Assembly: GCF_009923995.1 (NCBI RefSeq)
Contig: NZ_RFSK01000011.1
Location: 1 to 64,000 of the forward strand
DNA: 64,000 nt
Reading direction: 5' to 3'
Source: Janthinobacterium sp.
GTDB taxonomy: Bacteria > Pseudomonadota > Gammaproteobacteria > Burkholderiales > Burkholderiaceae_D
Shown: positions 24,175 to 46,330 of the stretch, piece after piece
Numbering within the stretch: the first letter of the stretch is position 1
Layout of the letters: each line of letters starts with the position of its first letter
Made by a program: the position numbers and the translations under genes
Notes under the pieces: model-generated
Told to the model about the DNA's origin: nothing
Database searches by the model: none
Seen by the model: only the letters and a program-made list of their open reading frames with translations

Positions 24175-24192
24175 AGCGACTATTCTTGCCAA

Positions 24193-24325
24193 ATATAGTC
24201 GTAAATTGATCAAGGGCCGAAACCCAGAATTGTCACGGCGCGGAACTTGATAAAGTCGTAAATTGGCAGCCCACCATACACCAATCTTTAGTGAGGTTGC
24301 AAAATAAAGTAGTAAAGTGATACTT
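24193..24325. repeat. Left-end TnsB-type sites of the older element
   Basis: Three directly repeated sites, ATAGTCGTAAATTG (about 24196), AAAGTCGTAAATTG (about 24252) and AAAGTAGTAAAGTG (about 24307), spaced by about 55 bases. They are the inverse of the right-end sites, as expected for the two ends of one element. Confidence 0.85.
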
Positions 24326-24643
24326 TCTGAGGCTGTCAAGCATCTAGCAAACTCATGGCGATTCACTATGCCAAAATTCCTGAGTCGTGCTTTGAACTTG
24401 CGACATCTTGCTGAACAAGAATCGTCTATTAGCGCCCCGTAATTTGGCGCCCCGCCTACGACGATACATCAAGGAACCCATGAATTTCGGTTTGCCGATA
24501 TCTATTTTTTTGCCTAGCTCAGGCAATTTTTCTCGAATGAAGCATAAGTAGGGAAACAGCAGACTGAACGTTGCTTATGAACTATGATAAACCACTAGTG
24601 CCAATGCTATGCTCACGATGTCTTTTTAATTAGAAAGCGATTC

Positions 24644-25486
24644 ATGTTGAACTTCGATGGCCAGTGGCGCTTCCAATCGCCTGGAACGATCGCGCCGGAC
24701 GTGCAAGAGGATATCCTCATAAAGGTTATCGGTCGAATAGGTACAAGTGCCCGTCGGCAGGACGTACTCGAAACGTTTAAGCGTCGTTTCGCGCAAGCTG
24801 CGGGGAAAACGTCAAGCAACAGCTCGAACGAGAGTTGGGCGGAAAGTGATCTTCGCCAATACATGAAGGATGCAGCGGAAAACGCCCCACTGTTTGTCGA
24901 GGCTTTGCACAACGGCCTAATTGACATGGGCCATTTGCGTGCAGTTATTCCTCCATGGAACTATGTGAACACAGTGCTAGCATCGAGCGGCTATGTGATC
25001 GATCCTCCGAATCTAATCATGAGCAGCGTGCCGGTGCCTATCTCCGTGCCGGCGAATGTGCCATCGCTTGACACTCAAGCGAACGAGCGCATTCAGCGCT
25101 CTTTGAGTGACTCCGAGACGTTTTTAAACACGGGCAGCTATCGAGCTGGGGTTCAGGAAATCTTGTGGTTACTGGAGACCATTTCAACCGCGTTTCAAGG
25201 AGCAGAGTATCCCGAGGGGAATATCACAGGGAAATACTTTAACAAGATCATCGGCGATCTCCGCCGTTTTAATCGCGCTCGCACTCTCAGCACGGTAGTG
25301 GACTGGATAGAGAAGTTGCATGGATATTTGTCTTCGCCCGGCGGCGGCGGCATCCGTCACGGGGCCTTGCTTAATGAAAACATCGAAATCACGGAAAGCG
25401 AAGCGAGGTTGTATTGCGACCTCACACGTAGCTACATCTCATTTTTGCTACATGAGCATTCGCGTTTGGGACCTGTTACCTCTTGA
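24644..25486 (+). CDS. Unknown protein with Abi-C/HEPN-like C-terminus
   Basis: A 280-residue soluble protein. The first 110 residues are polar and helical, with no family recognised. The C-terminal 140 residues (SDSETFLNTGSYRAGVQEIL onward, ending GGGIRHGALLNENIEITESE and a final YISFLLHEHS helix) resemble the abortive-infection C-terminal domain and HEPN-like proteins, including an Arg-His-Gly step before a long helix. This would suggest a phage-defence role, but the match is by eye and weak. It is cargo of the older Tn7-like element and its codon use is AT-richer than the chromosome. The ribosome site is weak. Confidence 0.5.
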   Translation: MLNFDGQWRFQSPGTIAPDVQEDILIKVIGRIGTSARRQDVLETFKRRFAQAAGKTSSNSSNESWAESDLRQYMKDAAENAPLFVEALHNGLIDMGHLRAVIPPWNYVNTVLASSGYVIDPPNLIMSSVPVPISVPANVPSLDTQANERIQRSLSDSETFLNTGSYRAGVQEILWLLETISTAFQGAEYPEGNITGKYFNKIIGDLRRFNRARTLSTVVDWIEKLHGYLSSPGGGGIRHGALLNENIEITESEARLYCDLTRSYISFLLHEHSRLGPVTS

Positions 25487-25541
25487 GGCTATGGTTCGGT
25501 CGATTGTCGATTCGGTCGAGTAGCATCGTAAACGACTGTTT

Positions 25542-26018
25542 GTGCACGGCGGGGGGATAGCCGGACCACCGGGCAGCCGGAGGCAGGGTTGTTTCCTATT
25601 TCAACTTGTGAACCCAGCTACGTTCTGGGTAGACACGCTGCGCGTAGCTGGCGAAGAGCGTCTATTTCCTGAGCTTAGCCAGCGGAGAGAAGGATTCGCG
25701 CACGCTGCATCAAATTGGTTTCAGCGCTATAAAAAGCGTTGTGGTATAGATGGCAAGCACACAAAGGTATTTCATAGCTTCAGGCACACCTTCATATCGG
25801 CGCTGTTTGATCACGACGTTCCTGAACATGCAGTTGCTAAGATCGTTGGTCATGAAGCTCAATTGATCACCGGGCGCGTTTACTGGAACATAAGGGATAC
25901 TGCAAAACGGAAGCCGACATTTTATAAGTACCATCCACCACTGGAAGTATGGAATCTTCTGCCGAGATTCGAGGCAGTTTTATTCGAAAACTCCAATTTT
26001 AACTTGGGCATAAATTAA
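25542..26018 (+). pseudogene. Tyrosine recombinase, C-terminal remnant
   Basis: About 158 codons, of which the last 120 encode the catalytic end of a phage-type integrase. FHSFRHTFISALFDHDVPEH holds the His-X-X-Arg pair, VGHEAQLITGRVYW holds the second His region and the nucleophile Tyr. The N-terminal DNA-binding half and the first catalytic Arg are missing; the frame opens with a GTG in unrelated sequence. It is therefore a truncated integrase, probably from a genomic island that used the tRNA-Phe gene whose 3' fragment lies 1.7 kb downstream in the same element. Confidence 0.75.
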
Positions 26019-26033
26019 CTTGGGCGTAAACTT

Positions 26034-26831
26034 ATGACATTACTGCTAGCCTGGGCGGCCTTTGATGACGGAAAAACTGATCCATCGGCGGTCTATATTA
26101 CTACAGACAGCCGAATTTCGTGGGGAAACAACTCTACGTGGGATTATGCGCAAAAAGTTTTTTGCATTCCGATAACCAAAGAAATATTTGGTTACTGCGG
26201 CGACGTCATGTGCGTGACACAAACACTCAGTCAGATTGTGCAACTTGGTAACCTAGGAGGATTTAATAGTCTTCCGACCACTCTGAATCGCGTGGAATTG
26301 TATGCAGATCTAATTAAAGATGCCTTGATCAGCTATCCTAAAGAACAAATTGTTTCGTCCTCAAATATCATTTATATACAGCGACATATCAATAGTTACA
26401 ACGTTTTTGAAATTATAATTTCCAAAGAAATGGTTGTAACAATTAATAAAATCGAGTTTACTAGAAATGTAAAACCGTCAAAAAAAAAAGACCGAACAGA
26501 TAGAATTATAAGGGGCAGTGGCGCTTCAAAATTTAGGGGAAAAGTGCCCCCAGATACAACTTATCAAGCGTTCCATAGATTTTGCGAATGCATAGATGAT
26601 GTTAATTTGCCGAGTGTCGGAGGTGTGCCACAAGTAGTAACGATCCGGCGAAATGGCCATTGCTTATTGCTCGGCATTAACAAAAATGGAGATAATCGCG
26701 TTCTTGGATTACCAGTTCAAGCTCCAGATTTGTTTTCTGGAATAAATGAATGGAAGAACGAAAATTTCGAAAGATGGGACCCGAAACAGAACCAACTAGT
26801 GATTGGAGCCAAGAGACAACCGAAAGCTTGA
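26034..26831 (+). CDS. HslV/proteasome-like Ntn hydrolase
   Basis: A 265-residue protein whose N-terminus follows the threonine-protease plan. After the initiator Met comes Thr2 (TLLLAWA), then ITTDSRISWG with Asp25 where HslV has the Asp of its GDGQ motif, then AQKVFCI with Lys41 matching the catalytic Lys33 of proteasome beta subunits, then FGYCGDVMC where HslV has AGFAGG. The following SQIVQLGNLG helix also fits. The rest (100-265) is divergent. A free N-terminal Thr after Met removal would be the nucleophile. It is cargo of the older element. Partner or target is unknown; a role in stress or phage response is a guess. Confidence 0.6.
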   Translation: MTLLLAWAAFDDGKTDPSAVYITTDSRISWGNNSTWDYAQKVFCIPITKEIFGYCGDVMCVTQTLSQIVQLGNLGGFNSLPTTLNRVELYADLIKDALISYPKEQIVSSSNIIYIQRHINSYNVFEIIISKEMVVTINKIEFTRNVKPSKKKDRTDRIIRGSGASKFRGKVPPDTTYQAFHRFCECIDDVNLPSVGGVPQVVTIRRNGHCLLLGINKNGDNRVLGLPVQAPDLFSGINEWKNENFERWDPKQNQLVIGAKRQPKA

Positions 26832-27688
26832 GAAATGCGTCGGTCAAATTTTTTCTTGAATTAAAATTCAAGTTGGCTTTGGCCAATAGCTTTATTCATA
26901 TTTCGGAAGGAAAAAGCTAATTTGTTGTTGGTTCCTCAAGGTTTTGGAAATTTGCAGGAGGGCTTTGCTCCCTCTTCTCTTACTTATGAAGTAAGCGTTT
27001 TAACTAATATAAACTACCGCACTGATCCGATATTACCTCATTGGGTTGGAAGTCACAATACCCATGACGGCGAGAATGCCAAGTTGATTCAATTCGGCAG
27101 CCATTTGGCACTGGTTGTCGATCAGGCTGACGTTCTTTATTTCCTAGGCATTGCCCGGCCATGAACGACATGCTGATAGGTCACTGCATTTGCAAACTCA
27201 GCCCTGGCCCGCTGTTCGGTGTCATCTTCATGCTGCCGGCTACAACTGCGAAGCGGCAACTAGTTCGCTCAGTATAAAGGTCGGCAACCAGCGGACTGCG
27301 TCCCTACAGAGTAACGAGGCCCTCTAACGTGTTCACAAAATGAGGGGCGGCTCGTTATGACCAAGGCTTCCCCTTACCCAAAGCTATTACTTATAATGAC
27401 ATTGGGAAACTTCACCAAAGATGCCCCCCTCGAGTCATGAAAAAATGCGGGTTTTGCGCACCTAACCAGTAACCTATCGAAGATCCTAACGGCTGGTGTG
27501 CTGAGAATTCGAATCCGCGTTACATTGTGGACTTGCTAAAACGAATTGTCCGCGTAAGTCTTGAAAGCGTCCGCATCGTGAAGAGTCTTCCGCCTATGAA
27601 TGAATATATTGCCTAATCGCTAGCTATCAGTCCCCCCGGCGGAACCAGAAATGGACCGGGCACGAGGACTGCAAACCCCGGAAACGAC

Positions 27689-27714
27689 AACGCCAATCTC
27701 GATGGGTTGGCGTT
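27689..27714. terminator. Hairpin downstream of the tRNA-Phe fragment
   Basis: AACGCCAA and TTGGCGTT with a 10-base loop, just beyond the CCA end of the tRNA fragment in its direction of transcription. It is probably the terminator of the original tRNA-Phe gene carried along with the fragment. Confidence 0.5.
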
Positions 27715-27731
27715 GCGTGAACGATGTTCCT

Positions 27732-27787
27732 TGGTGGTCCGGGGCGGAATCGAACCACCGACACAAGGATTTTCAATCCTTGTGTTG
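27732..27787 (-). pseudogene. tRNA-Phe(GAA), 3' fragment (probable att site remnant)
   Basis: On the minus strand the sequence has an anticodon stem-loop with loop TTGAAAA (anticodon GAA), a variable region GTGTC, a T-arm GGTGG-TTCGATT-CCGCC, the acceptor 3' strand CCGGACC, a discriminator A and CCA. The 5' half (acceptor 5' strand and D-arm) is absent; AT-rich unrelated sequence replaces it. Such 3' halves are the usual attachment sites of integrative islands, which fits the truncated integrase upstream. Confidence 0.8.
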
Positions 27788-27862
27788 TCTATGAATAAAA
27801 TAGAACTTCGCTCCAAGGCTAAGAACATCAATGTTGGATCAAGTCTCCCGCTCGCCTACTCA

Positions 27863-27919
27863 ATTTACGACTTTAATGACTCATTTACGACTTTAATGAA
27901 CCATTTACGACTTTAATGA
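27863..27919. repeat. Right-end TnsB-type sites of the older element
   Basis: Three copies of ATTTACGACTTTAATGA at 27863, 27883 and 27903, exactly 20 bases apart. They are the inverse of the left-end sites at 24.2-24.3 kb. This tight array is the right-end pattern of Tn7-type transposons. Confidence 0.9.
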
Positions 27920-27925
27920 GCAGGA

Positions 27926-27930
27926 ATAGC
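27926..27930. repeat. Target site duplication ATAGC, left copy
   Basis: ATAGC directly abuts the TGT terminus of the younger element; the second copy is at 46323-46327. The first three bases are the end of the older element and the last two are the start of its own duplication GCGAC. Confidence 0.95.
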
Positions 27931-27940
27931 TGTCGACACA

Positions 27941-28079
27941 TAAAAAAGTTTGACACAAGTAGCCCATACAAATCAATGATTTACGAAAAATACATAAAGA
28001 CGATTTTCGAGAAAAGTTTGATACAAACAAACCAGATTTTAAACGACATCGGAATCTTGCAATAAAAATGTTTGACACA
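27941..28079. repeat. Left-end TnsB-type sites of the younger element
   Basis: Three spaced sites with core AAAWGTTTGAYACA at 27941-27957, 28011-28027 and 28061-28079. They are the inverse of the three copies at the right end. Confidence 0.9.
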
Positions 28080-28122
28080 ATATCGGGGGGACTCACCCTC
28101 CGTCCGTTCCACGCCGCCTTCA

Positions 28123-29832
28123 ATGCCTGCAAAACTCCTTTTCTTTCCGCCTACGTTCCCTGACGAAACCCTCATTTCGAGGGTCTCACGCTATCATCTG
28201 ATGTCAGGCAACAGAACTGACCAGTCCACATTTATCGAGCTTTTCGGTAGAGCGGGTTTTGGATTGGGGGCGGTAGTGCCGCCGCATATTGGGGAACTGG
28301 CATTGCGCCTACCAGGAGACCTCGACACCAATGTAGTCGCCATTCACTGGGAGAGCACCTTGCTTCCGGCATTTCGCCCGTTTTTAGGGAGATCAAGCAA
28401 ATCTCCCTCGCCCCCCAGCGATGAGGCTGGCGAGGGCGCGGGAGTCAGCCACCTGCCCAGGCACGTGGTCGGCATGAGCGGAGAGGCGAAACTTTGCCTG
28501 AGCTGCGCCAACGATGATGAAAAGTTGCATGGCGCCGGGTATTGGCACCGATCCCATCAAATCCCTGGCGTGACCGTATGCTATAAACACCAAGAGGCAC
28601 TGATCAGCAGCTGTCCGAATTGCCGATACCCGTTTCAACACGCGAATCGACTGCTCTCCGTGCCTTGGGGGTCTTGCTACCAATGTAAGCAGCGTTTGAG
28701 CAAGGCCGGCCAAGGGCAGACCGTATCGGAGTTGGAAGTTGCGTTTGCGAGATACGCGCACGATCTGCTCCAGGAAAACATGGCGTCGGTGCCGCCTGAC
28801 ATTCTCATGAACACGTATCGGGAAAAGATCCGGCAACGCGGCTATGTCCGAAAGTCCCAAATCGATCTCAAAAGTTTTCAGGAGGCGATGATTCGATATC
28901 TGGGAGAGCCATTTATCCGCAAGGTGGATCCCGCTTTTTCATTGAACCGGACCAGCACTTGGCTGCGCTTATCCTACCTTCAGTCAGCACTGGATCTGCC
29001 GATTACGCGTCATCTCCTGATGGGAATGCATCTGTTTGGCACGGCCTCTCATTTTCATATCGAAGTGCAAGCGATGCAGAACGCTGGGCATATTACGCTC
29101 CGCAAGAAGGCCACGCAGTCCCACGCCAGCCAAAACATGCTGCGGGATGAATTCAGACAAAAAATCACAAAGGAATTGAAGAAAAATCCCACGCTCAGTA
29201 TGGAAAAACTTTGGAAGAAGCAAGTGCGTACGATGGCATGGTTATTCGAGCACGACAAGACCTGGCTGAACAACACAGTGACTGCGGGCGTAAGTAGAGA
29301 AACCGATGCGTTAGCGTCCAAGATACAAGCCGCTGATGCCCTCGATCGTGAAGGTGCCCGTCAAATTGAAGAGGTATCGCGCAAGCTGTTTGAACAGACA
29401 GGTAAACCTCAGCGTGTGACAATCAGCAAAATTCTCACCGGTCTGTCCAAGCCAGTAGCCAGCACAGCAGGCAATCGGGAGCGCTATCCGCTGTTGTTCG
29501 CCGCCCTCGATCTGTGCAAGGAAACCGCTTGGTGCTTTAGTGCACGCCGGATATTGTGGGCCTTGGGAGAGCTGGATCGCTTCGAAGAAACGATCACGAT
29601 AGGCAACATCGTATTGAGATCTGCTGTCGGAACTCGCGCCGTGGAGGAAATATTGCAATTTTGTGGCTGGGATGGAGAGAAGCTGAGCAAGACCACGATC
29701 AACCCCAAACTCTTGCTGGCGAAAGCAGGCATCACGCGCACATGGCGCGGCCCGTCCGAAAACAAGTTAGGAGAATTTGCTGGCCGCGGCTACGTGTCAA
29801 AAGGCACGCGCCGAAAAAAATGGGCTATTTAA
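28123..29832 (+). CDS. TniQ/TnsD-like target selector, left copy
   Basis: A 569-residue TniQ protein starting AKLLFFPPTFPDETLISRVS, the typical N-terminus. Zinc-binding groups follow: CLSCANDDEKLHGAGYWHRS with VCYKH (CCCH), then CPNC and CYQC. The long C-terminal half is basic and helical with possible HTH segments, as in TnsD. TniQ proteins bind a DNA target and recruit TnsC. It lies on the opposite strand to the other tns genes, right next to the left end, so it has its own promoter. The ATG at 28123 is the start; the frame opens earlier inside the end repeats. It could be the glmS selector or one for another target. Confidence 0.88.
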   Translation: MPAKLLFFPPTFPDETLISRVSRYHLMSGNRTDQSTFIELFGRAGFGLGAVVPPHIGELALRLPGDLDTNVVAIHWESTLLPAFRPFLGRSSKSPSPPSDEAGEGAGVSHLPRHVVGMSGEAKLCLSCANDDEKLHGAGYWHRSHQIPGVTVCYKHQEALISSCPNCRYPFQHANRLLSVPWGSCYQCKQRLSKAGQGQTVSELEVAFARYAHDLLQENMASVPPDILMNTYREKIRQRGYVRKSQIDLKSFQEAMIRYLGEPFIRKVDPAFSLNRTSTWLRLSYLQSALDLPITRHLLMGMHLFGTASHFHIEVQAMQNAGHITLRKKATQSHASQNMLRDEFRQKITKELKKNPTLSMEKLWKKQVRTMAWLFEHDKTWLNNTVTAGVSRETDALASKIQAADALDREGARQIEEVSRKLFEQTGKPQRVTISKILTGLSKPVASTAGNRERYPLLFAALDLCKETAWCFSARRILWALGELDRFEETITIGNIVLRSAVGTRAVEEILQFCGWDGEKLSKTTINPKLLLAKAGITRTWRGPSENKLGEFAGRGYVSKGTRRKKWAI

Positions 29833-30014
29833 CCCAACACCAGCGAAAACAAGACGCAGGCCACCGCACTGATCGAGAAAAGCGACAAGACCTCAGGCGC
29901 TCTCGACGTACTGGCGCCTCGTGCGCCTGGAAATCAATATTGATTGACAAGCCGATTCAATAACAGTTCTACCTCCTTGGCCAGGGGTGGTCTCAGTCTG
30001 GCCATATGCATCAA

Positions 30015-31763
30015 CTACCACGATGGCGGCAAGCCCTGATGATACATTTGCCGAGCGGCCCAAGACAGGCGGCGACACTGGAATTGCGCCGTCGTCTCCA
30101 CGCATGCGGCAAGCGCAACAGCGGTCAGAGGCAACTTGATCAAATGTTTTTCCAGCACCGCGAGGCAGCCAATTTTCCGGCCTATTGCCGATTGACTGAC
30201 TCGAACAGGCTTTTCCACTGCGTAAAGCTCCTGGCTACATTCCCGTACAGCGTCGGCCATTTCTTGGTCTCGTCGGCCCCAATCTATCCGCGCATTGTGC
30301 ACTATCAACCGGCGTGGTGTTGTCTCAATAGTATGGGTCAACCATTCCCGGTCATTCCTGTGCAACCAAGCGTAGTCGGGTCGCGCACGCAGTAAGGCGG
30401 TTGGATGTCCGCGTACAAATCGCTTCCGTCGCCGATCTCGTTGATTCACAAAGATCAATTCCTTTCTGACTTTTGCCACATCAGGAAACATGCGCAGTAA
30501 ACGATACAAGCTGACGGTCGAAGTCTGATGGCGTCGCGCCAGTGTCTCGAGCGCAGTGTTGGACTGGAGCGCCCTCGTCAGTATTGCCATCGTGGGTCCA
30601 TCGAGTTTCTTGGGCCGCTTGGCAACAGGGATGCCGCCTTGGGCAGCCTCGATACGCAAAGTAGTCACGGACTTGCCGAGAAGTTGGGCACAGCGCCGCA
30701 ACGAGTACTGAAGATCCACGAGCATCGTGCGTAACTGATTTCCAGGAAGTGCAGGCACAGGCGGCGGTAGCGAACGACTGGATGGGCGCGATATCTTGAC
30801 CGTCTCATTCGCCGCCATCAAAAGGTGCTCAATCTTGCCGTTGAGACACTGCAGCAGAACGAGATGCTTAAGCGGATGCGTTGACTTACGTGACTTGCGC
30901 AGCAAACTGATCGCCCAATCCTGGAGGCCGGAAGCCGGTCGCTGGAGGCATTGCATTGCGCCATTTGCGGACAGCGATGACACTTGCTGTCTTACTTGCT
31001 GGGACAATTCGGCAACCATCACCCGTCCGCCAGCATGAGTGAATCCGAGGTCCGATGCCAGACTGCGATAAAAGTCCTGAAGTCGCCTTGTAGGGATAAT
31101 ATCCAAATGCAAATTGAGAACTTGCCGACTCAGGATCGAGAGGGCTAGCATCCCTTCTCGATGCTGTGCTGAAACGACGACGTGCTTTGCGTGCAAGATG
31201 ACTTCCCTGTCCGCTGGGAGAAACAGTTGGTGGCGATGCTGTGCCACCCAGCTCGCCGCCAGTTCGACAAGCGGTGCGCCATGTTGCGCGCAGATATGAA
31301 CCGCCGGCAGCTGATGGGCTCGATGCCAATACGGTTGTCCAACAAGTTCCACATCCCGCTCGCTGCATTGTTCGCAATAACGATAGCAATTTCCCCCGCC
31401 CACTTGGCTTGCGATCAGCCCCATCAACGTCTTGAGCCCTGAAGCCGATGGACCTTTCATGGCAATGAGACTAAGTGCGACCTGCCGCTCAGTCAAGAAT
31501 GGACGGTAATACGGGAACAAGGTATGTCGGTCGACAATGTCTTGGGCATCAAGCGCCACTGCTTGGGGAAGCCTGGAAGCGAGGGTATCGAGCAAACTCG
31601 GAAGGTGTGACGACACGATCTGTGTGTGCTTACCGAATAGTTCATGCAATGTGTCCCGATCGTCATGATGGCCGGAAAGACGATGGTATCGCGCAATCAA
31701 ACTAAACAGCGACTCGTCCGGGAAACTGGTAGGGAAAAATTGCAAGCGGCCGCAACCACTCAT
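30015..31763 (-). CDS. TnsD/TniQ-family target selector of the tns operon
   Basis: A 582-residue TniQ protein. It begins SGCGRLQFFPTSFPDESLFS; the zinc-finger region YCEQCSERDVELVGQPYWHR continues to HICAQHG (CCCH pattern). The C-terminal half contains AQLLGKSVTTLRIEAAQGG and LARRHQTSTVSLYRLLRMF, two HTH-like segments expected of a DNA-binding TnsD. The ATG at 31763 lies 4 bases after the tnsC stop, so it is the last gene of a tnsA-tnsB-tnsC-tniQ operon. By position it is the best candidate for the glmS-specific TnsD, which recognises the 3' end of glmS. It is intact, unlike its operon partners. Confidence 0.88.
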   Translation of the reverse strand: MSGCGRLQFFPTSFPDESLFSLIARYHRLSGHHDDRDTLHELFGKHTQIVSSHLPSLLDTLASRLPQAVALDAQDIVDRHTLFPYYRPFLTERQVALSLIAMKGPSASGLKTLMGLIASQVGGGNCYRYCEQCSERDVELVGQPYWHRAHQLPAVHICAQHGAPLVELAASWVAQHRHQLFLPADREVILHAKHVVVSAQHREGMLALSILSRQVLNLHLDIIPTRRLQDFYRSLASDLGFTHAGGRVMVAELSQQVRQQVSSLSANGAMQCLQRPASGLQDWAISLLRKSRKSTHPLKHLVLLQCLNGKIEHLLMAANETVKISRPSSRSLPPPVPALPGNQLRTMLVDLQYSLRRCAQLLGKSVTTLRIEAAQGGIPVAKRPKKLDGPTMAILTRALQSNTALETLARRHQTSTVSLYRLLRMFPDVAKVRKELIFVNQRDRRRKRFVRGHPTALLRARPDYAWLHRNDREWLTHTIETTPRRLIVHNARIDWGRRDQEMADAVRECSQELYAVEKPVRVSQSAIGRKIGCLAVLEKHLIKLPLTAVALAACVETTAQFQCRRLSWAARQMYHQGLPPSW

Positions 31764-31767
31764 TGTC

Positions 31768-33228
31768 CTATGCACTCTTGCAATAGCTGTCGGAAAACTC
31801 CAGCGCATCGGTTTGCAACCAATTCTCCAGACGAAGAATCTCCAGTGGGTTTGCCTGTTCCGCGATGGTGGCAGAAATCGTCGGCGTTGATGGGGTGGCG
31901 TTGGCGGCCACTTGCTGCGGAGATGCCGCCGAAGACGGCGATTCTTCCGTAGTTGGCACGGTTGACGGCGGTGTGCCCCTGGCGGCCTTGGCCTGACGCA
32001 GTATCGACAGGCGGCTCTCGGAGGACAGCACGCCAGCATCGATCATCATATCGTCGAGCTGATCGTCGGTCGGCATCAGGTCTTCAAATTTGCGCATTTT
32101 TTTGGGATCCCGGCTGCGCAGAACCGCCAGCGCCGGCTTCAGGAGTTTCATTTTGGTGTCGGCGACATGCTTAAAGACAGCCTCCGTCAGCGTCTCCTCA
32201 TTGGACTGGATGGCGTAACGCTGTCCCAGTATCATTAGTTTGGCTAGGAAGTCAGTGACGCCCTGCGTGAGGTCGTACAGAGTGGCCCGTATGCCGTCGG
32301 TCAGCACTGCGGGATTGCTGACCCATTGGTACTCCCAGATAGTTTCGACGAGCAATGTCCAGGCATCACCACTTTCCTCGGGTTGCTTGAAATCATAAGT
32401 ACCCAAGCCACACGCGCGCCTGGCATTTCGAAGCACGTCCGCAAACAACTCGAATCCCGATGGTATTGATCAGATTGACGAAAAAATTAAGCATGTTATC
32501 TTTGCCGCCGGTCTTGGCCGCGTTCAGATGCTGCAATTCGTCAATAAAGATCGCACCGATAAAATAGGTGCTGGCGATTTGTTCCATCCTTTGAATCATT
32601 TCAAGGATGCCGCCCTTAGATTTATATCGCTGGCGTACTTCTGCTGTCCCAAGGCTTGATCCACGGCCCGGAAAAACGCGTGACACAGGCCAGATAGAGA
32701 GCCATCGAAAGGGCATTCAATTTTCAGCCAGACAATCTGTGTGTGGATGAATTCGCGATCCTTGTAGCGCTTATGGAGTATCGTTTGCGGATACAAGCGC
32801 AAGATCGAATTGAGCGCAGTGGTCTTGCCAATACCGCTTAAGCCGACCAAGCTAAAGGTTGTGGCCGAGGACTGGAAATTTGCCATGGCGCGTCGATCGG
32901 TCGACAAGGTATGCAAATGCCGCCAAGTGGCCGCCGACATGGGATTGCGGCTGACATAGCCGCTGCGGATCAGCGACGAGACTGCGCTCTCCAGTTCAAG
33001 GTGAATCTCCAACGGCTGCACTACGGTTCTCAACCGATCAATGCAATGGAGCCGGACTTCCTTGGGCAAGCTGCGCTCTTGTTCGCTCCCGTCAGGAAAG
33101 TGGCCAATCAAACACGCCGCATCCTGCTCCGATAGAATCGGCGGCAGTGCTTCGATCAAAGGATTGCCGCCATATTCGGAAACGGGAGACGGGGTGTAGG
33201 TGGCATATACCGGTGCTTGGTTGCTCAT
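31768..33228 (-). pseudogene. tnsC: TnsC ATPase, broken by two reading-frame lesions
   Basis: Three frames together give a full TnsC. Frame one (33228 to about 32650) has TTFSLVGLSGIGKTTALNSI, the Walker A. Frame two has RYKSKGGILEMIQRMEQIAS and IGAIFIDELQHLNAAKTGG, the Walker B region. Frame three (from about 32448) has FADVLRNARRACGLGTYDF and the C-terminus. The first break lies at a run of three Gs (32648-32650 as C on the plus strand) and would be restored by one extra G. The second, near 32445-32462, has lost the strand that joins NTIGI to GFELFADV, probably by a small deletion. TnsC is the AAA+ regulator that passes the target to TnsAB. Confidence 0.85.
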
Positions 33229-33237
33229 GGTGACGGC

Positions 33238-35420: not shown

Positions 35421-35421
35421 C

Positions 35422-38059: not shown

Positions 38060-38063
38060 GCAA

Positions 38064-39245
38064 ATGACTCAAATTCGACTGCGCAGTGCCGACGATATGC
38101 CGGGTACTCATGTATTGATCATCGGTGTCGGCTACTACCGTCACCTGCGAGGGGGGCCCGAGCAACGAAACAAAGTGCACTTAGGATTAAACGTATTAAG
38201 CTCACCGCCGATATCCGCCATGCGTTTGGCACGCTGGCTGATTGATGGTGACGGTGCTGGCAGCGGCTTACACAACCCGCGCGCGCCACTTACGACGCTT
38301 GAAGTTCTAGTATCGTCGGAGCAGAGTGAGCAGCTTAACGCGGCAGGCGTTGCATATAGCATTGAGCGAGCTTCTTTGCCTCTTGTCCAAGCTGGCTTCG
38401 ACCGCTGGATCGACGAGGTTCAACGCCATGCCAATAATGTGGGTATGATCTACTTTTGCGGGCACGGCGTGATGGGTAATGGCCCTGAGCATATCCTGCT
38501 TCTAGATGATCACGGTGCTAATGGCAACCGTCCATTTCAAACCGGAAGCTTTGATCTGTCCAACACCGTTCGCGCGCTTTGGCGACAGGTGCCTGCTCAA
38601 CTCTACGTATTCGTCGATGCCTGCCGAACATATAGCCGGGGCATTGGCGAACGGCTTGGCGCGCGGCCAGCTCCGTTGTTGGACGATGGACTCTCCTCAG
38701 CTAACGTCAACCGTGGTACCACCTGGATCGAGTCCACCACGGAAGGCGAGTTGGCCTACGGCGATAGCGTAGGGATCTCACGCTTTACGGATGCATTGCT
38801 GCAGGCGCTGGATGGCTATTGTGGCGTTCCTCAGCCCGGAACAGCAAACTGGCACGTTAATGGCAGTGCACTTACCCAGGCGATGCCAAAGCTGCTGGCC
38901 ATGGTGAACAAGGAGCGTGGCGGCGATCCCCAATCCTGCACTCCACATCCTTCTGGTGCAGTGGATGCTCCATTGCATATAACGGCCATGGTACCTAAAG
39001 TCAGGGTAGAGATCGAACTCTCGCCCGAGGCGTTGCGAATGAAAAGCCGTTACGAGATTCACAATTTGGCTGATACCAGCGCGCCACCGATCACTGGTGG
39101 GCAAGCGGATGGTATCTGGTGTACTGAAGCGAATAAAGGGATGTACGAAGTACGGATAGATTGCGCGAGCCACCAACCCTATGCGAGTGGTGTACAGTAC
39201 TTAGAACCGCCGCATTACCATCTTCCTGTGGAGGTGCAGCCATGA
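38064..39245 (+). CDS. Caspase-like (C14) protease
   Basis: A 393-residue protein. THVLIIGVGYYRHLRGG is the first caspase strand. The catalytic dyad is visible: His134 in MIYFCGHGVMGNGP and Cys187 in LYVFVDACRTYSRG. Between them ILLLDDHGANGNRPF is the usual loop. Residues from about 300 form a beta-rich tail (VRVEIELSPEALRMKSRYEI and following). Bacterial caspase-like proteases often act as executioners in phage defence and usually cut a partner protein. Here the partners would be the co-encoded hydrolase and the unknown protein. The stop overlaps the next ATG by 4 bases. Confidence 0.82.
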   Translation: MTQIRLRSADDMPGTHVLIIGVGYYRHLRGGPEQRNKVHLGLNVLSSPPISAMRLARWLIDGDGAGSGLHNPRAPLTTLEVLVSSEQSEQLNAAGVAYSIERASLPLVQAGFDRWIDEVQRHANNVGMIYFCGHGVMGNGPEHILLLDDHGANGNRPFQTGSFDLSNTVRALWRQVPAQLYVFVDACRTYSRGIGERLGARPAPLLDDGLSSANVNRGTTWIESTTEGELAYGDSVGISRFTDALLQALDGYCGVPQPGTANWHVNGSALTQAMPKLLAMVNKERGGDPQSCTPHPSGAVDAPLHITAMVPKVRVEIELSPEALRMKSRYEIHNLADTSAPPITGGQADGIWCTEANKGMYEVRIDCASHQPYASGVQYLEPPHYHLPVEVQP

Positions 39246-40642
39246 GTCAGCATCGTTTACGTATCCGACTGAGCTTGCGCGAGGAGCTTGGTTTTCTCCC
39301 TGCCTTTCTTCCGGTGAGTATTGTTGACGCGCACGGACAAGTGCTTACCACTGGCGCCGTGAATACCCGTCGCTTCACGGAAATTCACTACGACCGGACC
39401 GACGCACCGATTTTCGTTCGTTTGACTCTGCCTAATGGAACGGCCGAGATGCAGCCGCTGCAAACACGTGATCGTGTGTGGCGCGACGAAGTGACATTTA
39501 GTCTTGGAGATGATGTCACAACCTCCCACTGGATGGCATGGTCGGCTATGCGTGTAAACATGAAGCGACATGGTGGGGCCCTGCTGAATCAACCTGGTAT
39601 GAAGGACGCTTGGTTTCAACTGTGGGAGAAAACACCGGATGCCCGGGCCTGGCGGCAGATTCCGATGGACGCACAATTGATTGATCTTCCTCGCTCACAG
39701 GACGCAATTCAATTGGAGCTTCGGGATTCGCACAACCCACGTGCACTGGTTGTGCGCCTGGACAGTGATACGCCACAGATTGTGTCCTTACCCACACTGG
39801 AAACTAGAGTGTTGGTTACGTCGTTGCGCACTCTGTCGGGAGTGGTGACGCCGCGAGTAGTGGTAGGCGGGTATAGCCCTAATGCCGAGGCTATTATGGA
39901 GTTTTTACTGGCTGGCAGGCTCAGCTCGGTTGAATCGATGCTTGATCCAGGTAGTAAACTAGCACATCAGCTGTTGCGCGATAAGCTCGAAGATCCTATC
40001 GCTGCAACTGCTGCAGCTTACTATCTGCTTCGTAAGCGTGATTGGGATCGCCTGCCGTCCTCATGGCTGGACAACCTTGTCAACTGGAATGAGGGGATCC
40101 CCGATGCACAGCTGATTCGTGCTACAAGCCAGATCGAACGTGGTATGTCAATGGACCGCGCCGCTAGCCTTGCCGTCGAAACGTTGTCGCGTTTTCTTGA
40201 TAACGGGATGCCGTTGTTTGCGGAGGCTAGCACGTTACTTAGCGACCTTCTAGCATTGGCGGAGAAAGCTGAGTCGCCGTTGGACCCGCAGACTGCGAAG
40301 ATGTTGCGCATGATGCTTGCATCCTCACGTCCTGCCGGACTGAGCTTTGGCTTCGCGGGAAAGGCCCCCGACAAGCCGATGACCGCTCACAAAGCGTTCG
40401 AGCGGCGGCAAGAGGTTCGTAGTCGACAACTTTTGGCTGAAGCAACTAGGCAAGTAAACGTCCTTACCCACTTTGAAACGGTCGGATCCTTCCCAGCCCT
40501 CCGCAATGATTCTTCGCGCCGACAGCTTCGCATGGCGGCGGAAACCATTCGGCTAAGTGCGAATGTATTATTGTCTACCCCGCAGCGTGCAGTTTCTGGT
40601 AGTGCTGCAAAGACGTTATTCCTGCAGGACGTCCTAGAGTAA
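39242..40642 (+). CDS. Unknown protein of the hydrolase-caspase operon
   Basis: A 466-residue protein with no family I recognise. Residues 1-95 are beta-rich (RLRIRLSLREELGFLPAFLP, ending VTFSLGD), like a small immunoglobulin or prealbumin-type domain. Residues 95-215 are mixed. From about 215 to the end it is almost all helix, with AHQLLRDKLEDPIAATAAAY and AQLIRATSQIERGMSMDRAA, possibly helical repeats. GGAGGTG precedes the ATG, which overlaps the caspase stop. It may be the sensor, a scaffold or the caspase substrate. The strict coupling of three genes indicates a fixed module. Confidence 0.65.
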   Translation: MSQHRLRIRLSLREELGFLPAFLPVSIVDAHGQVLTTGAVNTRRFTEIHYDRTDAPIFVRLTLPNGTAEMQPLQTRDRVWRDEVTFSLGDDVTTSHWMAWSAMRVNMKRHGGALLNQPGMKDAWFQLWEKTPDARAWRQIPMDAQLIDLPRSQDAIQLELRDSHNPRALVVRLDSDTPQIVSLPTLETRVLVTSLRTLSGVVTPRVVVGGYSPNAEAIMEFLLAGRLSSVESMLDPGSKLAHQLLRDKLEDPIAATAAAYYLLRKRDWDRLPSSWLDNLVNWNEGIPDAQLIRATSQIERGMSMDRAASLAVETLSRFLDNGMPLFAEASTLLSDLLALAEKAESPLDPQTAKMLRMMLASSRPAGLSFGFAGKAPDKPMTAHKAFERRQEVRSRQLLAEATRQVNVLTHFETVGSFPALRNDSSRRQLRMAAETIRLSANVLLSTPQRAVSGSAAKTLFLQDVLE

Positions 40643-40724
40643 GGCACATTGAACTTCCGTAGGGTGCGGGCGCCCCACTCCTGCACTGGTAGACAGTTTA
40701 GTACTGCCCGCCAGCGCAGGTGGT

Positions 40725-42941
40725 TTACACTCGAATTGGCAGAGAAACCTGAGACTGAAGTGGCGTCAGAATGCTCACGTAAGTACGAAGGATATCATTG
40801 TAGAGATCCGCATGTTTGGGGGCCTTAATGGTTATCACTAATGCGTATCGGATTTTCTCGGCATTGCTTGCTTTGCCCCCACCCTCACGGGCGTTGTAGT
40901 GGATGTCGAATACTGGATCACTTAATGACGAGCCACGCATGCTCTTTTCTCCATGCAGGACAGTCTCCCATTTACCCAAATCGGAACGCCGCTCCTCTTC
41001 AGTAGCAAATTGCTTCATATCGAAGAACCCCTTAGACGATGCATTTGAGGCACCGTCTTTTACTTTCGCCGAGTTGGGGCGAAACACCACGTCTAGTCCG
41101 GCGCGAGTATACGCGGAAGCATCTTGCGGATCGGTTGGACAGGCATAGCAGAATGTAGCGCCCAGGACAATATTGCCCGTGAGGCCACCTTGCGGCAACG
41201 GTAATGCTGCGCGCAAGTACTTTCCAGGCTTAAGCTCGCCTTGGTAGATAATTCGTGCGACGCCATCTGGACAGGTGATCAGCGTCATAAGGTCCTCAGG
41301 AATTTTTCCCCAGCCTACTTCGCACTTATCATGTTCCCCAGCGTCCGCGCCGTGAATCATGAGCGCCTTGAGGGTAAGTGGTGACAACTCCGTACCTAAA
41401 ATCGCCCGCATGCCTACTGCAGATCGCAGGAGATACGGTCCCGCTAGGCTTGTTCCCATCTGTGGAGCAAGGCGTGCCCGATTAGAGGGCGTCAACACAT
41501 GAAAATAATGAGATGAATCGCCACCAAATGCGAGAAGGTCCGGTTTCATTACTCCTGGACTGCGTCCCGGTCCGACGGCACTGTATGCTGCTCGCGCCCA
41601 TTTTGCAGTTGTGCTATCAGCAGCACCAACCGCAATGCCGTTGACACAGTCGGCTGGAACTTGTATCCGCGCATTACCAGAAACACGATCGTTCTCTCCA
41701 TTATTTCCTACTGAGATGGTCATAAATGTATCACCATCTCCGAGAAGATCGTCAATAACAGCGGTCCAAGCGTGGACATCTGAATCTTCGATTGGTAAAT
41801 CAGGGCCTAGGCTTAGATTAATAAATTCGTATTGGCGAGATAGAAGTACCTGCTCGACAAATCCGAGTGTGCGGTACATTTCTAGCCGATCTTCAGTATG
41901 TGAATCATCGTCGAGGACACGAATGCTGTCCACGTATGAGTAAGGTCGATCAGCCATACCATTTGGCTGTAAGGGGCCAAACAAAAATGCAGAGGTCACG
42001 CCGAGGCCGTGCTCGTTTGCCTCAAGATCGTCAGCTGCATTTGGATCCAAGCGGTGATACGCCTTCACCCAAGGAGAAATCGGATGTTGAGATGGGAGCC
42101 CTCCATCTAAGATTGCTACCCGGGGCTCAGAAGATAACGGCTGCGTCGTGGGTAATTGGCATGTAATGGAAACACTCGATGTACGCGTGATCGGCCTCAT
42201 TCCTCGAAGTTTAGGCATCGGCCTGATTACGCGTACGAACGAAAATAGAGCCAGACGCTCTACGCTTTGCCTACTACCCTCTGCGGGTATGAACCACAAA
42301 TTTCCTGCTCGGAATGCCAAATCTCCGTATAACTTCACGTCGAGTTTAGCTGCGAATTTCGCGAATCCTTGTTGAATGAACGCAGAGCTATCTTCTTGCA
42401 GAAGATGAAGGCCTACCTCAAAAAATCGTTCCTTTAGACTGCCATAATCTCGCACTCTTGCATCCGGTGAAAATGCTTGAAATTCTTCAATGTGTGCGAT
42501 ATCTAGTGCTTCATCTGAACCTTGCTCCGCATGTTGTATCCAATCGGGTAGGCTACGAAAAACGCTGCGCTTTCCAGCGACAAATAACTGAGTAGTACTA
42601 GACTCAGCAGGTTCTCCCTTTTTTGTCCAAGCCTCCGGCGTTACCTTCACTGTTCGACTGCCTACCGATTCTAGGCCTGCTGCTCGTAATAATGCGACGG
42701 GAAAATACGATCGTGCAATGTAACCTGGGTTGAGAGTTAGCAAGGCCACCCCAAAGTCACGAGGGCACGCATCATCGGGCAGACTATCCAGCGTTTGGGA
42801 GGCGTCTTTCAACTTTGGTCGGAGACGTTGAATGGCATAGGAGTAAGGATAAACCTCAGCTTTATCACCAAAACGCTTCGGACCTTTGATGTCACGTACC
42901 AGAAGCTCGCCGCGGCCAATCAGAAAGTTCGGTTTGTTCAT
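40725..42941 (-). CDS. Subtilisin-like serine protease (IetS-like)
   Basis: A 738-residue protein with an S8 domain in the middle. The catalytic Asp is in VAILDGGLPSQHP (about residue 275), the His in NEHGLGVTSAFLF and the Ser in MGTSLAGPYLLRSA. The N-terminal 250 residues are unique to this group and the C-terminus is beta-rich. There is no signal peptide, so it should act inside the cell. Its ATG overlaps the stop of the upstream AAA ATPase by 4 bases. An ATPase plus subtilase pair is the layout of IetAS, first described as a plasmid-stability system in Agrobacterium and later as an anti-phage system. Confidence 0.85.
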   Translation of the reverse strand: MNKPNFLIGRGELLVRDIKGPKRFGDKAEVYPYSYAIQRLRPKLKDASQTLDSLPDDACPRDFGVALLTLNPGYIARSYFPVALLRAAGLESVGSRTVKVTPEAWTKKGEPAESSTTQLFVAGKRSVFRSLPDWIQHAEQGSDEALDIAHIEEFQAFSPDARVRDYGSLKERFFEVGLHLLQEDSSAFIQQGFAKFAAKLDVKLYGDLAFRAGNLWFIPAEGSRQSVERLALFSFVRVIRPMPKLRGMRPITRTSSVSITCQLPTTQPLSSEPRVAILDGGLPSQHPISPWVKAYHRLDPNAADDLEANEHGLGVTSAFLFGPLQPNGMADRPYSYVDSIRVLDDDSHTEDRLEMYRTLGFVEQVLLSRQYEFINLSLGPDLPIEDSDVHAWTAVIDDLLGDGDTFMTISVGNNGENDRVSGNARIQVPADCVNGIAVGAADSTTAKWARAAYSAVGPGRSPGVMKPDLLAFGGDSSHYFHVLTPSNRARLAPQMGTSLAGPYLLRSAVGMRAILGTELSPLTLKALMIHGADAGEHDKCEVGWGKIPEDLMTLITCPDGVARIIYQGELKPGKYLRAALPLPQGGLTGNIVLGATFCYACPTDPQDASAYTRAGLDVVFRPNSAKVKDGASNASSKGFFDMKQFATEEERRSDLGKWETVLHGEKSMRGSSLSDPVFDIHYNAREGGGKASNAEKIRYALVITIKAPKHADLYNDILRTYVSILTPLQSQVSLPIRV

Positions 42942-44092
42942 GCCTTTTTATACCTCTCTTTAGTTTGATTGCTTTTGTTTCCATGTTTACGAATTGTGTC
43001 TCGGCTTACCCCAGTGAGATCCGAAGCTGTATGCTGAGACAATGTTTTGCTATTTGTCAACGTGACAGCTAATTCTATCCGTGCCGTGTGCTCAAGCATT
43101 TGGGCTCGCCCGCGAATAAACTCTTCAATTAGATCAGTGTCTGAAGCAATTCCCAGCACCAAGGTGCGCCGAAACTTCTGAATTGAGCGTTCGATATCGC
43201 TTATCGAGAGGCCTTTAAACGCATAAGTAAGCACATCTATCCACTTAGCTAGAAGAGGGTAATCATTGCCTAGGAAGCGTCGCACGGAATCTTTGATGGC
43301 GGTCTCATCAGGCATTTCAAATTTAATTTCGAGATCGAAGCGACGCCAGAGCGCTGGATCTATTAGTTCCGGATGATTGGTTGCTGCAATTAGTAAGCTT
43401 GTGACAGGCCAGTTATCGACCTCTTGCAGTATTACGTTTACCAATCGTTTAAGTTCTCCGATATCGGCTTCATCGCTTCGGCGTTTTGCAATCGCATCAA
43501 TCTCATCAAGAAATAGAACGCATGGAACTCGCTTTGCAAAATCCAACGCTGCACGTAGATTGCTCCCACTCTTGCCCAACAAACTGCTCATTACGGCAGT
43601 TAGGTCCAGTACATAAAGTGGTACACCTAACTGTGCAGCAATCCATCTGGCAGTCAACGATTTGCCAACACCAGGAGGACCGACAAAGATTGCTGACCTT
43701 GAGGGCTCAAGTCCGGCTGCCTTTAGCCTATCGGCTTGACGGCGCTCCTCTAGCAGTTGACTCAACGAGGCTCCCAAATCTTCAGAGAGCAATGGCTCGG
43801 GAAAATCCCGTGGATCGTTGAATGTCCGAAGGAGAGTTAATCGTGACTCATCATCGACCGGCATTGCATGCTCTGCGTTCCTCGGCGGTACTGCAGCTCG
43901 TCGCAGTGGAGTGTTCGTCCTTGTTGCACGATTCTTAAGAAACAGATCTAGCTGCTCTGCTAATTGAGGCTCAGTAGTTCGGTATTTGCGAACCAATCGG
44001 GCGACGTACAGACGTACATCATCCGCTTGCTCCAAAAGAGATAGCCTAACGAGCTGGACTAAATCTTTTTTAACTGCATTTTGTTCGTCCAT
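42938..44092 (-). CDS. AAA ATPase (IetA-like)
   Basis: A 384-residue AAA+ protein. Residues 1-130 are helical. The ATPase core has Walker A IFVGPPGVGKSLTARWIAAQ and Walker B PCVLFLDEIDAIAKRRSDEA, plus sensor 1 LLIAATNHPELIDPALWRRF with arginine fingers. The C-terminus has a short helical region (TLSQHTASDLTGVSRDTIRK) that looks like a helix-turn-helix. It is upstream of and overlaps the subtilase gene. In the IetAS model the ATPase restrains or directs the protease. The pair is encoded on the strand opposite to the caspase operon. Confidence 0.86.
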   Translation of the reverse strand: MDEQNAVKKDLVQLVRLSLLEQADDVRLYVARLVRKYRTTEPQLAEQLDLFLKNRATRTNTPLRRAAVPPRNAEHAMPVDDESRLTLLRTFNDPRDFPEPLLSEDLGASLSQLLEERRQADRLKAAGLEPSRSAIFVGPPGVGKSLTARWIAAQLGVPLYVLDLTAVMSSLLGKSGSNLRAALDFAKRVPCVLFLDEIDAIAKRRSDEADIGELKRLVNVILQEVDNWPVTSLLIAATNHPELIDPALWRRFDLEIKFEMPDETAIKDSVRRFLGNDYPLLAKWIDVLTYAFKGLSISDIERSIQKFRRTLVLGIASDTDLIEEFIRGRAQMLEHTARIELAVTLTNSKTLSQHTASDLTGVSRDTIRKHGNKSNQTKERYKKA

Positions 44093-44271
44093 TTTAAATA
44101 TAAGTCTTTGATTTTAATGTGAAAAGTTACGATGATTTCTGGACTAATTAAATTTTACACTGTTTTGCGCTCAATGTGTATAGATATACAGTATTTGTGC
44201 CAGATGAAGCGCGAAGTAGGGTGATCATACCTATCAGAAGTGTCCGTCATACTGGTGGGGGTAGCCCCCAC

Positions 44272-45270
44272 GTCGAGGTCTACAGTATCGATGAGTCATT
44301 CCTGAACTTGAACGGCCTGGGCGAGCTGTGGGCCTCGCCTACGGCCATGGGCCAGGATATCCGCGCCAAGGTACTACTCTGGACCAGTCTGCCGGTTTGT
44401 GTTGGAATTGGCGCCTCGAAGACGCAAGCGAAGCTGACCAACCATATTGCCAAGAAATTCCCGCTCTTCGACAGCGTGTGTGACCTCTCCACCATGTCCG
44501 CTGCCCGTATGCACTGGCTATTCACCCATATCGACGTAGGCGAAGTAAGCGGCGTTGGCCGGCGCATCGGCGAAAAGCTACGCGCCCCGGACATCAACAC
44601 TGTGCAAGACCTCAAGAATGCCTCGCCGCGCGACATGCGCGCCAGGTTCGGCGTGGTCATGGAAAGAACGTGCCGCGAGCTACAGGGAATATCGTGCCTG
44701 GCATTGGATGAAGTAGCCCCGCCACGTAAGGAAATCATCAGCTCAAGGTCGTTCGGCGCCATGGTGGCCAGCGTTGACGAGCTGGCCCAGGCCATGACCG
44801 CCTATGTCACCCGAGCGGGCGAGAAGCTGCGGGCACAAGGGTCGGTGTGTGGCGCTGTGCATGTTTTCGTGCAAACGGATCGCTGCCGCCGCAATGAACT
44901 CCAGTACAGCAACGGACTAACCGTCCCGTTGATCGTGCCGACGGATGATAGCCGCGTACTTGCAGGTGCTGCCTTGCATGGGCTGGATCGCATTTTCATC
45001 GAGGGGTTCCGCTACAAGAAGGCCAGGGTGATGCTCATGGACCTGTCCCCGAAGAGTATGCTGCAGGGTGTGCTGTTTGATGAGGCACGCCCGCGCGAGC
45101 CAGGTGTCAAGGTGATGGCAACGCTCGATGCGTTGAACAGCCGCTTCGGGCGCGATACGGTCACGCTGGCATCGTCCGGACTGGCACCGCGCTGGTGCAT
45201 GCGATCAGAAAATAAGACGCCGGCATACACGACTCGACGGAATGAATTGCCAAAAACATTCGCTTCTTGA
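44272..45270 (+). pseudogene. UmuC/DNA polymerase V catalytic subunit, N-terminally truncated
   Basis: Homology to Y-family polymerases starts abruptly with VEVYSIDESFLNLNGL, which holds the catalytic SIDE motif, and continues with VCVGIGASKTQAKLTNHIAK, the helix-hairpin-helix GEVSGVGRRIGEKL and a normal C-terminus. The first 95 or so residues, including the start of the palm (DCNNFYASCE in family members) are missing and replaced by unrelated codons from 44176. It cannot be a working polymerase. No umuD is adjacent. GC content is higher than the neighbouring IetA gene, so this fragment has a separate origin. Confidence 0.82.
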
Positions 45271-45349
45271 TATGTTCTGATACTATATATTACTGCCAAG
45301 ATGTAGTTTTAGGCATTATCAAAATACCGAATCTAAATATGGAGAATTT

Positions 45350-45637
45350 ATGAGCAATATCATAAACGTGGGTCTTGATTTTCTAACGCTTTCTGATAAT
45401 AAAGTAGACATAAAAGTCTACCAAGACCGTTTGAGTGCAGCACTCCCTGACTATAAGCTTGAATTCTCTTTTCCAAAAAGTAGCAGTCCTGACGCCAGCT
45501 ATATTTGGGCAATCAATTCTGCTGGGGGGATAGATGTTCATCCCTCTGTGGTTTTTAAGGCTGCTGAACTGATATGGCCAGACGTTGTCGGAACTGCAGC
45601 TCAACAACCACCATCAACACTTAAAACTGATGCATAG
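45350..45637 (+). CDS. Small hypothetical cargo protein
   Basis: A 95-residue protein starting SNIINVGLDFLTLSDNKVDI, with no recognisable motif, no membrane segment and no cysteine. GGAG lies 7 bases before the ATG, and the upstream region is AT-rich with possible promoter elements, so it looks like a real gene. It is the last cargo gene before the right end of the Tn7-like element. Function unknown. Confidence 0.5.
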   Translation: MSNIINVGLDFLTLSDNKVDIKVYQDRLSAALPDYKLEFSFPKSSSPDASYIWAINSAGGIDVHPSVVFKAAELIWPDVVGTAAQQPPSTLKTDA

Positions 45638-46182
45638 AATTCTTGTTGGTGGCCAGTGCTGAACTCTGGCTCGGGGCCGCGGTGATTTTTTATCGTAGCT
45701 GCTTTGCTCACATTCTTGGTACAGCCTAGTACATTCGCCGGCGCCGGTTCGGTCCATCTGCCTCGCATCTGCCTGCGCATTCACCAACAAGAGAGGTTCG
45801 CTAGCCCCCAGCCGGCTACCTCTCGTTTTGGCCGCCGCTTACGCCCGGCGAGTCGATTGCATTTTACTTTGCTGCGTTGATGAACGGCAACGGCGCGCCG
45901 GCATACATGTTGGCCGGCAACACGCCATCCCCCCTTTGCCGGCGCGCACCATGTCCACCTCGATGCGGCGCAGCTCCAGCACGTCTCGGTTCTGCGCCAG
46001 CGCCGCGCCCTGCAGGCGTAACCGCCGATGGCTCACACTATTCGCACGACGACGCATACTACGCGTTCGGCGACGACGTCATTGCGGCGCAGCTTGTCAT
46101 CTTCAAGAGAATATTCGAGGGAACCAACCACATGCCGCACTACGATATGATGATTGAAAGGGCGTAGGTCGAGTCCTTTTTC

Positions 46183-46230
46183 CGACCACTTTGGCTCGAC
46201 CAACTTTATTCGAGTCCGACCAACTTTATT
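46183..46230. repeat. Third TnsB-like repeat array inside the right end
   Basis: CGACCAACTTTATT occurs at 46197 and 46217, exactly 20 bases apart, with a weaker CGACCACTTTGGCT at 46183. The inverse, AATAAAGTTGGTCG, recalls Tn7-type sites (AATAAAGTC...) but differs from both arrays used by the two elements. No matching inverted set was found by eye. Confidence 0.5.
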
Positions 46231-46257
46231 TGGCTCTCGTCACACTCGATATTCTTG

Positions 46258-46312
46258 TGTCAAACATTTTTAGACAGTGTCAAACATTTTTAGTTTGTGT
46301 CAAACATTTTTA
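46258..46312. repeat. Right-end TnsB-type sites of the younger element
   Basis: Three direct copies of TGTCAAACATTTTTA at 46258, 46278 and 46298 with an exact 20-base period, inverse to the left-end sites. The tight array marks this as the Tn7-type right end, which faces glmS as in Tn7. Confidence 0.92.
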
Positions 46313-46322
46313 TTTATCAACA

Positions 46323-46330
46323 ATAGCGAC
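46323..46330. repeat. Overlapping target duplications ATAGC and GCGAC
   Basis: ATAGC (46323-46327) is the right copy for the younger element and GCGAC (46326-46330) the right copy for the older one. The overlap shows that the younger transposon inserted across the end of the older one. Confidence 0.92.

Follow-up and report, generated by a model that had tools for sequence, protein, structure and literature searches.

The presence of two Tn7-like elements side by side next to glmS raises the question of whether a single attachment site, attTn7, was used twice and, if so, in which order. We studied this in a stretch of 64,000 nucleotides from Janthinobacterium sp. (contig NZ_RFSK01000011.1, positions 1 to 64,000), hereafter called the window, where an earlier analysis of the letters alone (the sequence-only reading) had described two stacked elements with overlapping target duplications. 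Our results make it very probable that the attTn7 beside glmS was indeed used twice, first by an older element with 5'-TATTC ends and then by an unrelated element with TGT ends.

Two overlapping target duplications

The boundaries and duplications of both elements were recomputed and agree base by base with the sequence-only reading. The younger element spans positions 27931-46322 on the forward strand (18,392 bp), with TGT...ACA ends that are read directly; its left end starts TGTCGACACATAAAAAAGTTTGACACAAG and its inverted right end starts TGTTGATAAATAAAAATGTTTGACACAAA. It is bordered by two copies of ATAGC, at 27926-27930 and 46323-46327. Once this element and one ATAGC are removed, GCGAC stands on either side of the older element (24181-27928, forward strand, 3,748 bp), which starts TATTCTTGCCAAATATAGTCGTAAATTG on the left and TATTCCTGCTCATTAAAGTCGTAAATGG at its inverted right end, and whose 33-nucleotide terminal inverted repeat is 79% complementary. 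The left copy of this older 5-bp duplication lies at 24176-24180. The right copy (46326-46330) shares its GC with the younger duplication. The left ATAGC is composed of the ATA that terminates the older element and the GC that starts its duplication, so the younger target consisted, as had been claimed, of the last three bases of the older element and two bases of its duplication. The gene glmS follows on the reverse strand (46349-48178), its TAA stop being 26 bp from the younger terminus and formerly 23 bp from the older one.

The end sequences of the two elements belong to different families, as the sequence-only reading had it, and each element has its own 5-bp duplication and its own terminal inverted repeat. 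Both right ends, on the reverse strand, carry three repeats 20 bp apart: 20-nucleotide repeats at 27863, 27883, and 27903 in the older element (27863-27922), and repeats at 46255, 46275, and 46295 followed by the ACA terminus in the younger one (46255-46322). The repeats of the left ends are more widely spaced, at 27948, 28016, and 28070 in the younger element and at 24193, 24250, and 24304 in the older one, where the three 16-nucleotide repeats (24193-24319, forward strand) are putative TnsB sites.

From the flanks, the empty site reads CCAGCGACAGGCAG. A relative of the same genus, G013, holds CCAGCGACAGGC without interruption and with a single GCGAC, which is the predicted empty site; in G039 the same GCGACAGG lies at an equal distance from glmS with few changes around it. 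The proposed search for an empty-site strain was therefore successful. In the empty site, CCA and not ATA precedes GCGAC. The right-hand ATAGC needs the terminal ATA of the older element to be already in place, which forces the order from older to younger. The reverse order, with the younger element arriving first, is ruled out, because ATAGC cannot come from the empty site. The duplications, the end families, and the empty site of G013 thus support two independent insertions, older then younger, in an order that is not reversible.

The comparison of the flanks covers 37 relatives and the window; two of the 40 genomes of the genus were left out, one without a match to the glmS probe (G037) and one with a match of 27 bases (G028). 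In eight of these 37 loci (G013, G035, G039, G004, G005, G007, G010, and G018), a metF-like gene, the neighbour of the older element in the window, stands 31-202 bp away from the end of glmS without an intervening element.

The older element and the family with TATTC ends

The description of the older element as Tn7-like stands for its asymmetric end arrays, its 5-bp duplication, and its insertion close to glmS. It does not extend to genes of its own or to the termini: the element lacks the tnsABC and tniQ/tnsD set and TGT/ACA ends. A profile scan recognised no tns gene among its open reading frames (ORFs) of at least 158 amino acids, and we class it as a derivative and not as an autonomous member; TniQ occurs at only two places in the genome of the window, both within the younger element. 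A strain with the older family and without the younger element at glmS, which the sequence-only reading had suggested looking for, is G032. It has the older right end at glmS (84% over 285 columns), where the flank is another one, CTGGT, and its contig also encodes tnsA, tnsB, tnsC, tniQ, and tnsD. In the window, a stretch at 24373-24588 (forward strand) resembles the sequence that immediately precedes tnsD in G032 (80% over 218 columns), tnsD itself being missing from the older element. Because this stretch lies about 50 bp from the left-end repeats, the tns block was apparently lost between the left end and the stretch. Judging from this comparison, the older element is best read as a deletion derivative of a Tn7-like element.

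We searched 294 genomes of the same bacterial family for the TATTC end, using the reversed pattern as a control. The pattern was found at nine places in 8 genomes, and the control gave no match. Eight of the nine places, the window included, are right ends, and the five bases preceding them differ in all eight. The TATTC boundary of G032 is also consistent with the uninterrupted flank of G019. TATTC is thus a genuine terminus and does not stem from a misplaced boundary. Right ends of this family stand at glmS with independent flanks, 22-24 bp from the stop, in G032, G078, G106, and G292; in the last three, TATTC starts 24, 22, and 22 bp past the stop, respectively. The contigs of G078 and G155 stop shortly past the right end. 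The TnsB of G579, 58% identical to that of G032, is its only close relative among 399 genomes. Literature searches on non-TGT ends and on stacked or tandem Tn7-like insertions, which fell short of most subscription papers, gave no paper on the TATTC family.

Two further loci were noted in this survey. At positions 4160-4230 of locus L128 (G050:C4), a left and a right end of the TATTC family face each other across five bases, GCTAT, as if two elements of the same family stood in tandem. At 10140-10200 of L133 (G155:C31), an end-like sequence seen by eye, CGACGGACTTTATTGCATGACA, directly precedes the TATTC right end, possibly another Tn7-like stack.

Alternative explanations

The two elements lie side by side in the same orientation, as they would if 24181-46322 had moved as one composite transposon, with its left end from the older element and its right end from the younger. 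The outer 5-mers, however, do not match (GCGAC on the left, ATAGC on the right), the ends are of different families, and a matching duplication accompanies each element separately. The sequence contradicts this explanation, and we give it practically no credence. An assembly artefact could be suspected at the junctions, since the source is a draft of 154 contigs and the frames of tnsA and tnsC are broken. Yet the window has no N, the region is interior to one contig of 135,347 bases, and base-exact duplications together with a restored empty site are unlike a misjoin; an artefact is extremely improbable. The older stretch might instead be an unrelated insertion, given its TATTC rather than TGT ends and its lack of a recognised tns gene. 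Against this stand its 5-bp duplication, its sparse left and dense right arrays, its distance of 23 bp from the stop of glmS, and the right end and internal stretch that it has in common with the G032 element bearing tnsA, tnsB, tnsC, tniQ, and tnsD. We regard it as quite unlikely. Somewhat more plausible, but still improbable, is that the stack formed in another strain and that the glmS region was swapped in as a block by homologous recombination. This is compatible with the junctions, and the glmS flanks differ strongly among relatives; however, the outer borders carry GCGAC, precisely the sequence of the local empty site in G013, and a swap would relocate the two events while leaving their order unchanged.

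Several observations weigh against two successive insertions by a TATTC-ended and a TGT-ended Tn7-like element, or against parts of this account. The search for a strain with only the younger element, also proposed by the sequence-only reading, came back empty: a TnsB search of genome contigs confirmed no relative, and a family-wide one found TnsB-like matches in 35 of 392 genomes, none of them close. The right end of G006 is similar to the younger one (37 bp, 95%), but its genome gave no TniQ match. In G032, whose contig begins inside the element, the left end was not found, so that the link between TATTC ends and Tns proteins is made by the right end and one internal stretch in one genome. 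G106 and G292 have the right end, but the 39 kb examined there gave no Tns match, and in G579 we found no TATTC end, nor clear ends by repeat search. Finally, the frame breaks in tnsA and tnsC could be sequencing errors.

How an occupied site may be used again

The history begins with a TATTC-family element, which inserted 23 bp from the glmS stop and duplicated GCGAC. Before or after this insertion, the element lost its transposition genes, as the comparison with G032 shows. Later, an unrelated TGT-ended element landed 26 bp from the stop, across the border between the older element and its duplication, and duplicated ATAGC. Its position and its two TniQ/TnsD genes suggest that a TnsD-type protein guided it to the intact end of glmS. 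The site stays open because TnsD reads the glmS end, which each insertion leaves intact; PMC11406308 argues likewise to explain the need for immunity. Following Tn7 biology, insertion at a fixed distance should push earlier elements outward, and distance from glmS would then reflect relative age, which agrees with the sequence. An element whose ends are unrelated would probably escape such immunity. The older element could presumably not block the newcomer, because it has a different end family and, encoding no TnsB of its own kind, would confer no immunity.

The reuse of an occupied attTn7, another claim of the sequence-only reading, is real. With unrelated ends it is expected and not surprising, since Tn7 biology leads one to expect that unrelated elements will stack. 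The novelty lies in the base-exact record of the overlap, in the TATTC-ended family, and in signs of more layers buried at the site. Parks and Peters reportedly described, in 2007, genomic islands that grew as Tn7-like elements inserted repeatedly at a single site. The locus is like those islands in having several Tn7-type insertions at one attTn7, and unlike them in that overlapping duplications give the order base by base.

The likeness to Tn7 itself includes the insertion beyond the glmS stop in a fixed orientation, the dense-repeat right end facing glmS, the 5-bp duplications, and the TnsA/TnsB/TnsC/TniQ-TnsD gene set of the younger element. According to PMC2918618, Tn7 inserts some 20 bp beyond the stop of glmS, and the end arrangement given for Tn7 in PMC11406308 matches the dense right and sparse left repeats of both elements. 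Unlike Tn7, the locus has two unrelated elements in series, an older one without tns genes and a younger one in which tnsA and tnsC are broken. The younger TnsB also stands apart, with at most 57% identity to near-full-length matches in the 392 genomes (a partial match in G056 reaches 65%) and at most 53.6% among the plasmid records listed. According to PMC11406308, TGT/ACA ends are typical of these elements and not universal, the exceptions being some type I-F3 and type I-D elements. The older ends resemble those of Tn7-like transposons associated with CRISPR (clustered regularly interspaced short palindromic repeats) in departing from TGT/ACA, and differ in being TATTC and in targeting glmS. 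No cas gene was recognised among the scanned ORFs of the older and younger elements and of the G032 element (8 ORFs); no dedicated search for CRISPR arrays was made.

Overlapping target duplications give the order of two insertions without a phylogeny. Should other members of the genus show the same pattern, the layers of their glmS flanks could be used to ask how frequently Tn7-like elements reuse an occupied site, whether an element is immune only to its own family, and by what route stacked ends become chimeric cargo. A broader proposal, which we put forward tentatively and with some doubt, is that repeated insertion at glmS has produced both a readable stratigraphy in the genus and composite elements, in which right ends from different families and pieces of other islands become fused within later arrivals, and that the TATTC family is a Tn7-like lineage without CRISPR that targets glmS and has a transposase able to cut non-TGT ends. 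The part on composite elements draws on an end of a third family within the younger element and on a tRNA-Phe-like fragment in the older element and in that of G015. The TATTC family would also lend itself to testing why TGT ends are retained in most Tn7-like elements.

Further layers at the glmS flank

The third-family end is a relic right end at 46183-46242 (reverse strand), just inside the right-end repeats of the younger element. It has two copies of CGACCAACTTTATT 20 bp apart, at 46197 and 46217, followed by CTCTCGTCA. We searched the 40 genomes for this pattern at up to 2 mismatches, with the reversed pattern as a control, and found it in five; in two of these (G027 and G029) it is exact and by glmS. 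Only the exact matches count, because the reversed control matched many genomes at 2 mismatches. In G029 the 14-mer of the relic adjoins glmS; in G027 it is about 200 bases away, behind another right end. This foreign right end may have come to lie inside the younger element through the fusion of stacked elements by deletion.

We also examined the 600 bases adjoining glmS for repeats with a spacing of 18-24 bp, using shuffled segments as a control. G023, with 10 bases of flank, was left out of this count, and repeat pairs at least 414 bases from glmS (G030, G014, G036, G012, G011) were not taken as right ends. The window and 9 of 36 relatives (G017, G021, G032, G015, G006, G026, G027, G016, G011) have an array that stops no more than 30 bases short of the glmS end, against a shuffled mean of 0 to 0.15, and a second array was seen in the window and in G027. 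The glmS flank is an insertion hotspot with more layers than two.

Some loci were noted by eye and are uncounted. Ends undetected by the scan are apparent in G029, G003, and G001. L052 (G015) has two more end-like sequences in the last 250 bases before the glmS right end, and L061 (G003) has a right end like that of the third family, CTTTATTAGCTCGAGTCA, about 230 bases from glmS and behind another right end. The metF-like gene is 1.3 to 8.7 kb from glmS in G001, G026, G002, and G008 (L039, L059, L066, L036), which indicates other insertions of that size at the same place.

Contents of the two elements

The younger element encodes TnsA, TnsB, TnsC, and a TniQ/TnsD selector, identified with Pfam and tblastn, and joins this gene set to TGT/ACA ends, arrays of the TnsB-site type (predicted), a 5-bp duplication, and a position 26 bp past the glmS stop. 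Its first TniQ/TnsD-family protein (28072-29832, forward strand, 586 amino acids) matches PF15978 (E 1.1e-17) and PF06527 (E 3.2e-11); the second (30015-32039, reverse strand, ORF of 674 amino acids) matches the same profiles with E 5.6e-37 and 6.2e-19. The remaining transposition genes are on the reverse strand. tnsC (31768-33228) is in three frames (33228-32596, 32716-32393, 32448-31768), which correspond to consecutive portions of a single frame at the loci of five relatives. tnsB (33426-35420) is a single open frame of 664 amino acids with 38-57% identity to near full-length TnsB-like frames elsewhere, in comparisons checked over 38-60% of the length, depending on the row. tnsA (35422-36281; PF08722/PF08721) is in two frames (36281-35841, 35892-35422), which likewise match successive parts of one frame in relatives; the N-terminal tnsA match of G017 is itself in two pieces. 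Because tnsA is split in two frames and tnsC in three, the present function of this transposition set is doubtful.

The cargo ORFs at 36824-40642 (forward strand) include a caspase-like protein (37890-39245; PF00656, E 9.5e-8). They are followed on the reverse strand (40725-44092) by an IetAS-like defence pair, in which an IetA-like AAA ATPase (42938-44092) adjoins an IetS-like S8 peptidase (40725-42941), both matched by PADLOC (E 3.2e-84 and 1.8e-45, respectively). The IetS is divergent, its score being 116 bits where the NCBIfam cut-off is 900. A UmuC-like polymerase frame (44176-45270, forward strand) lacks the N-terminal part, its match starting at model position 92 of 422.

In the older element, the forward strand holds two cargo ORFs without a family match, of 280 (24644-25486) and 265 amino acids (26034-26831), and between them the C-terminal fragment of a tyrosine recombinase (25542-26018; PF00589, E 1.6e-8, profile positions 107-169 of 172). 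On the reverse strand, a fragment at 27736-27795 is 98% identical to the 3' halves of two tRNA-Phe genes of the same genome. The stretch at 27640-27862, which ends in this fragment (related loci L044, L051, L052), is also found in the G032 element, in the G015 element of a different family, and beside glmS in G019 without an element. The fragment may have been captured from the glmS flank. Similar stretches of 100-140 bp, however, occur at many other places in the results of 39 of the 40 genomes, many of them being just the tRNA gene itself, so that the fragment is as likely a scrap of a tRNA-Phe island. The older element also contains a tRNA-Met-like gene (26950-27023, reverse strand, anticodon cat), which scores 35.5 bits in Rfam against a cut-off of 29.

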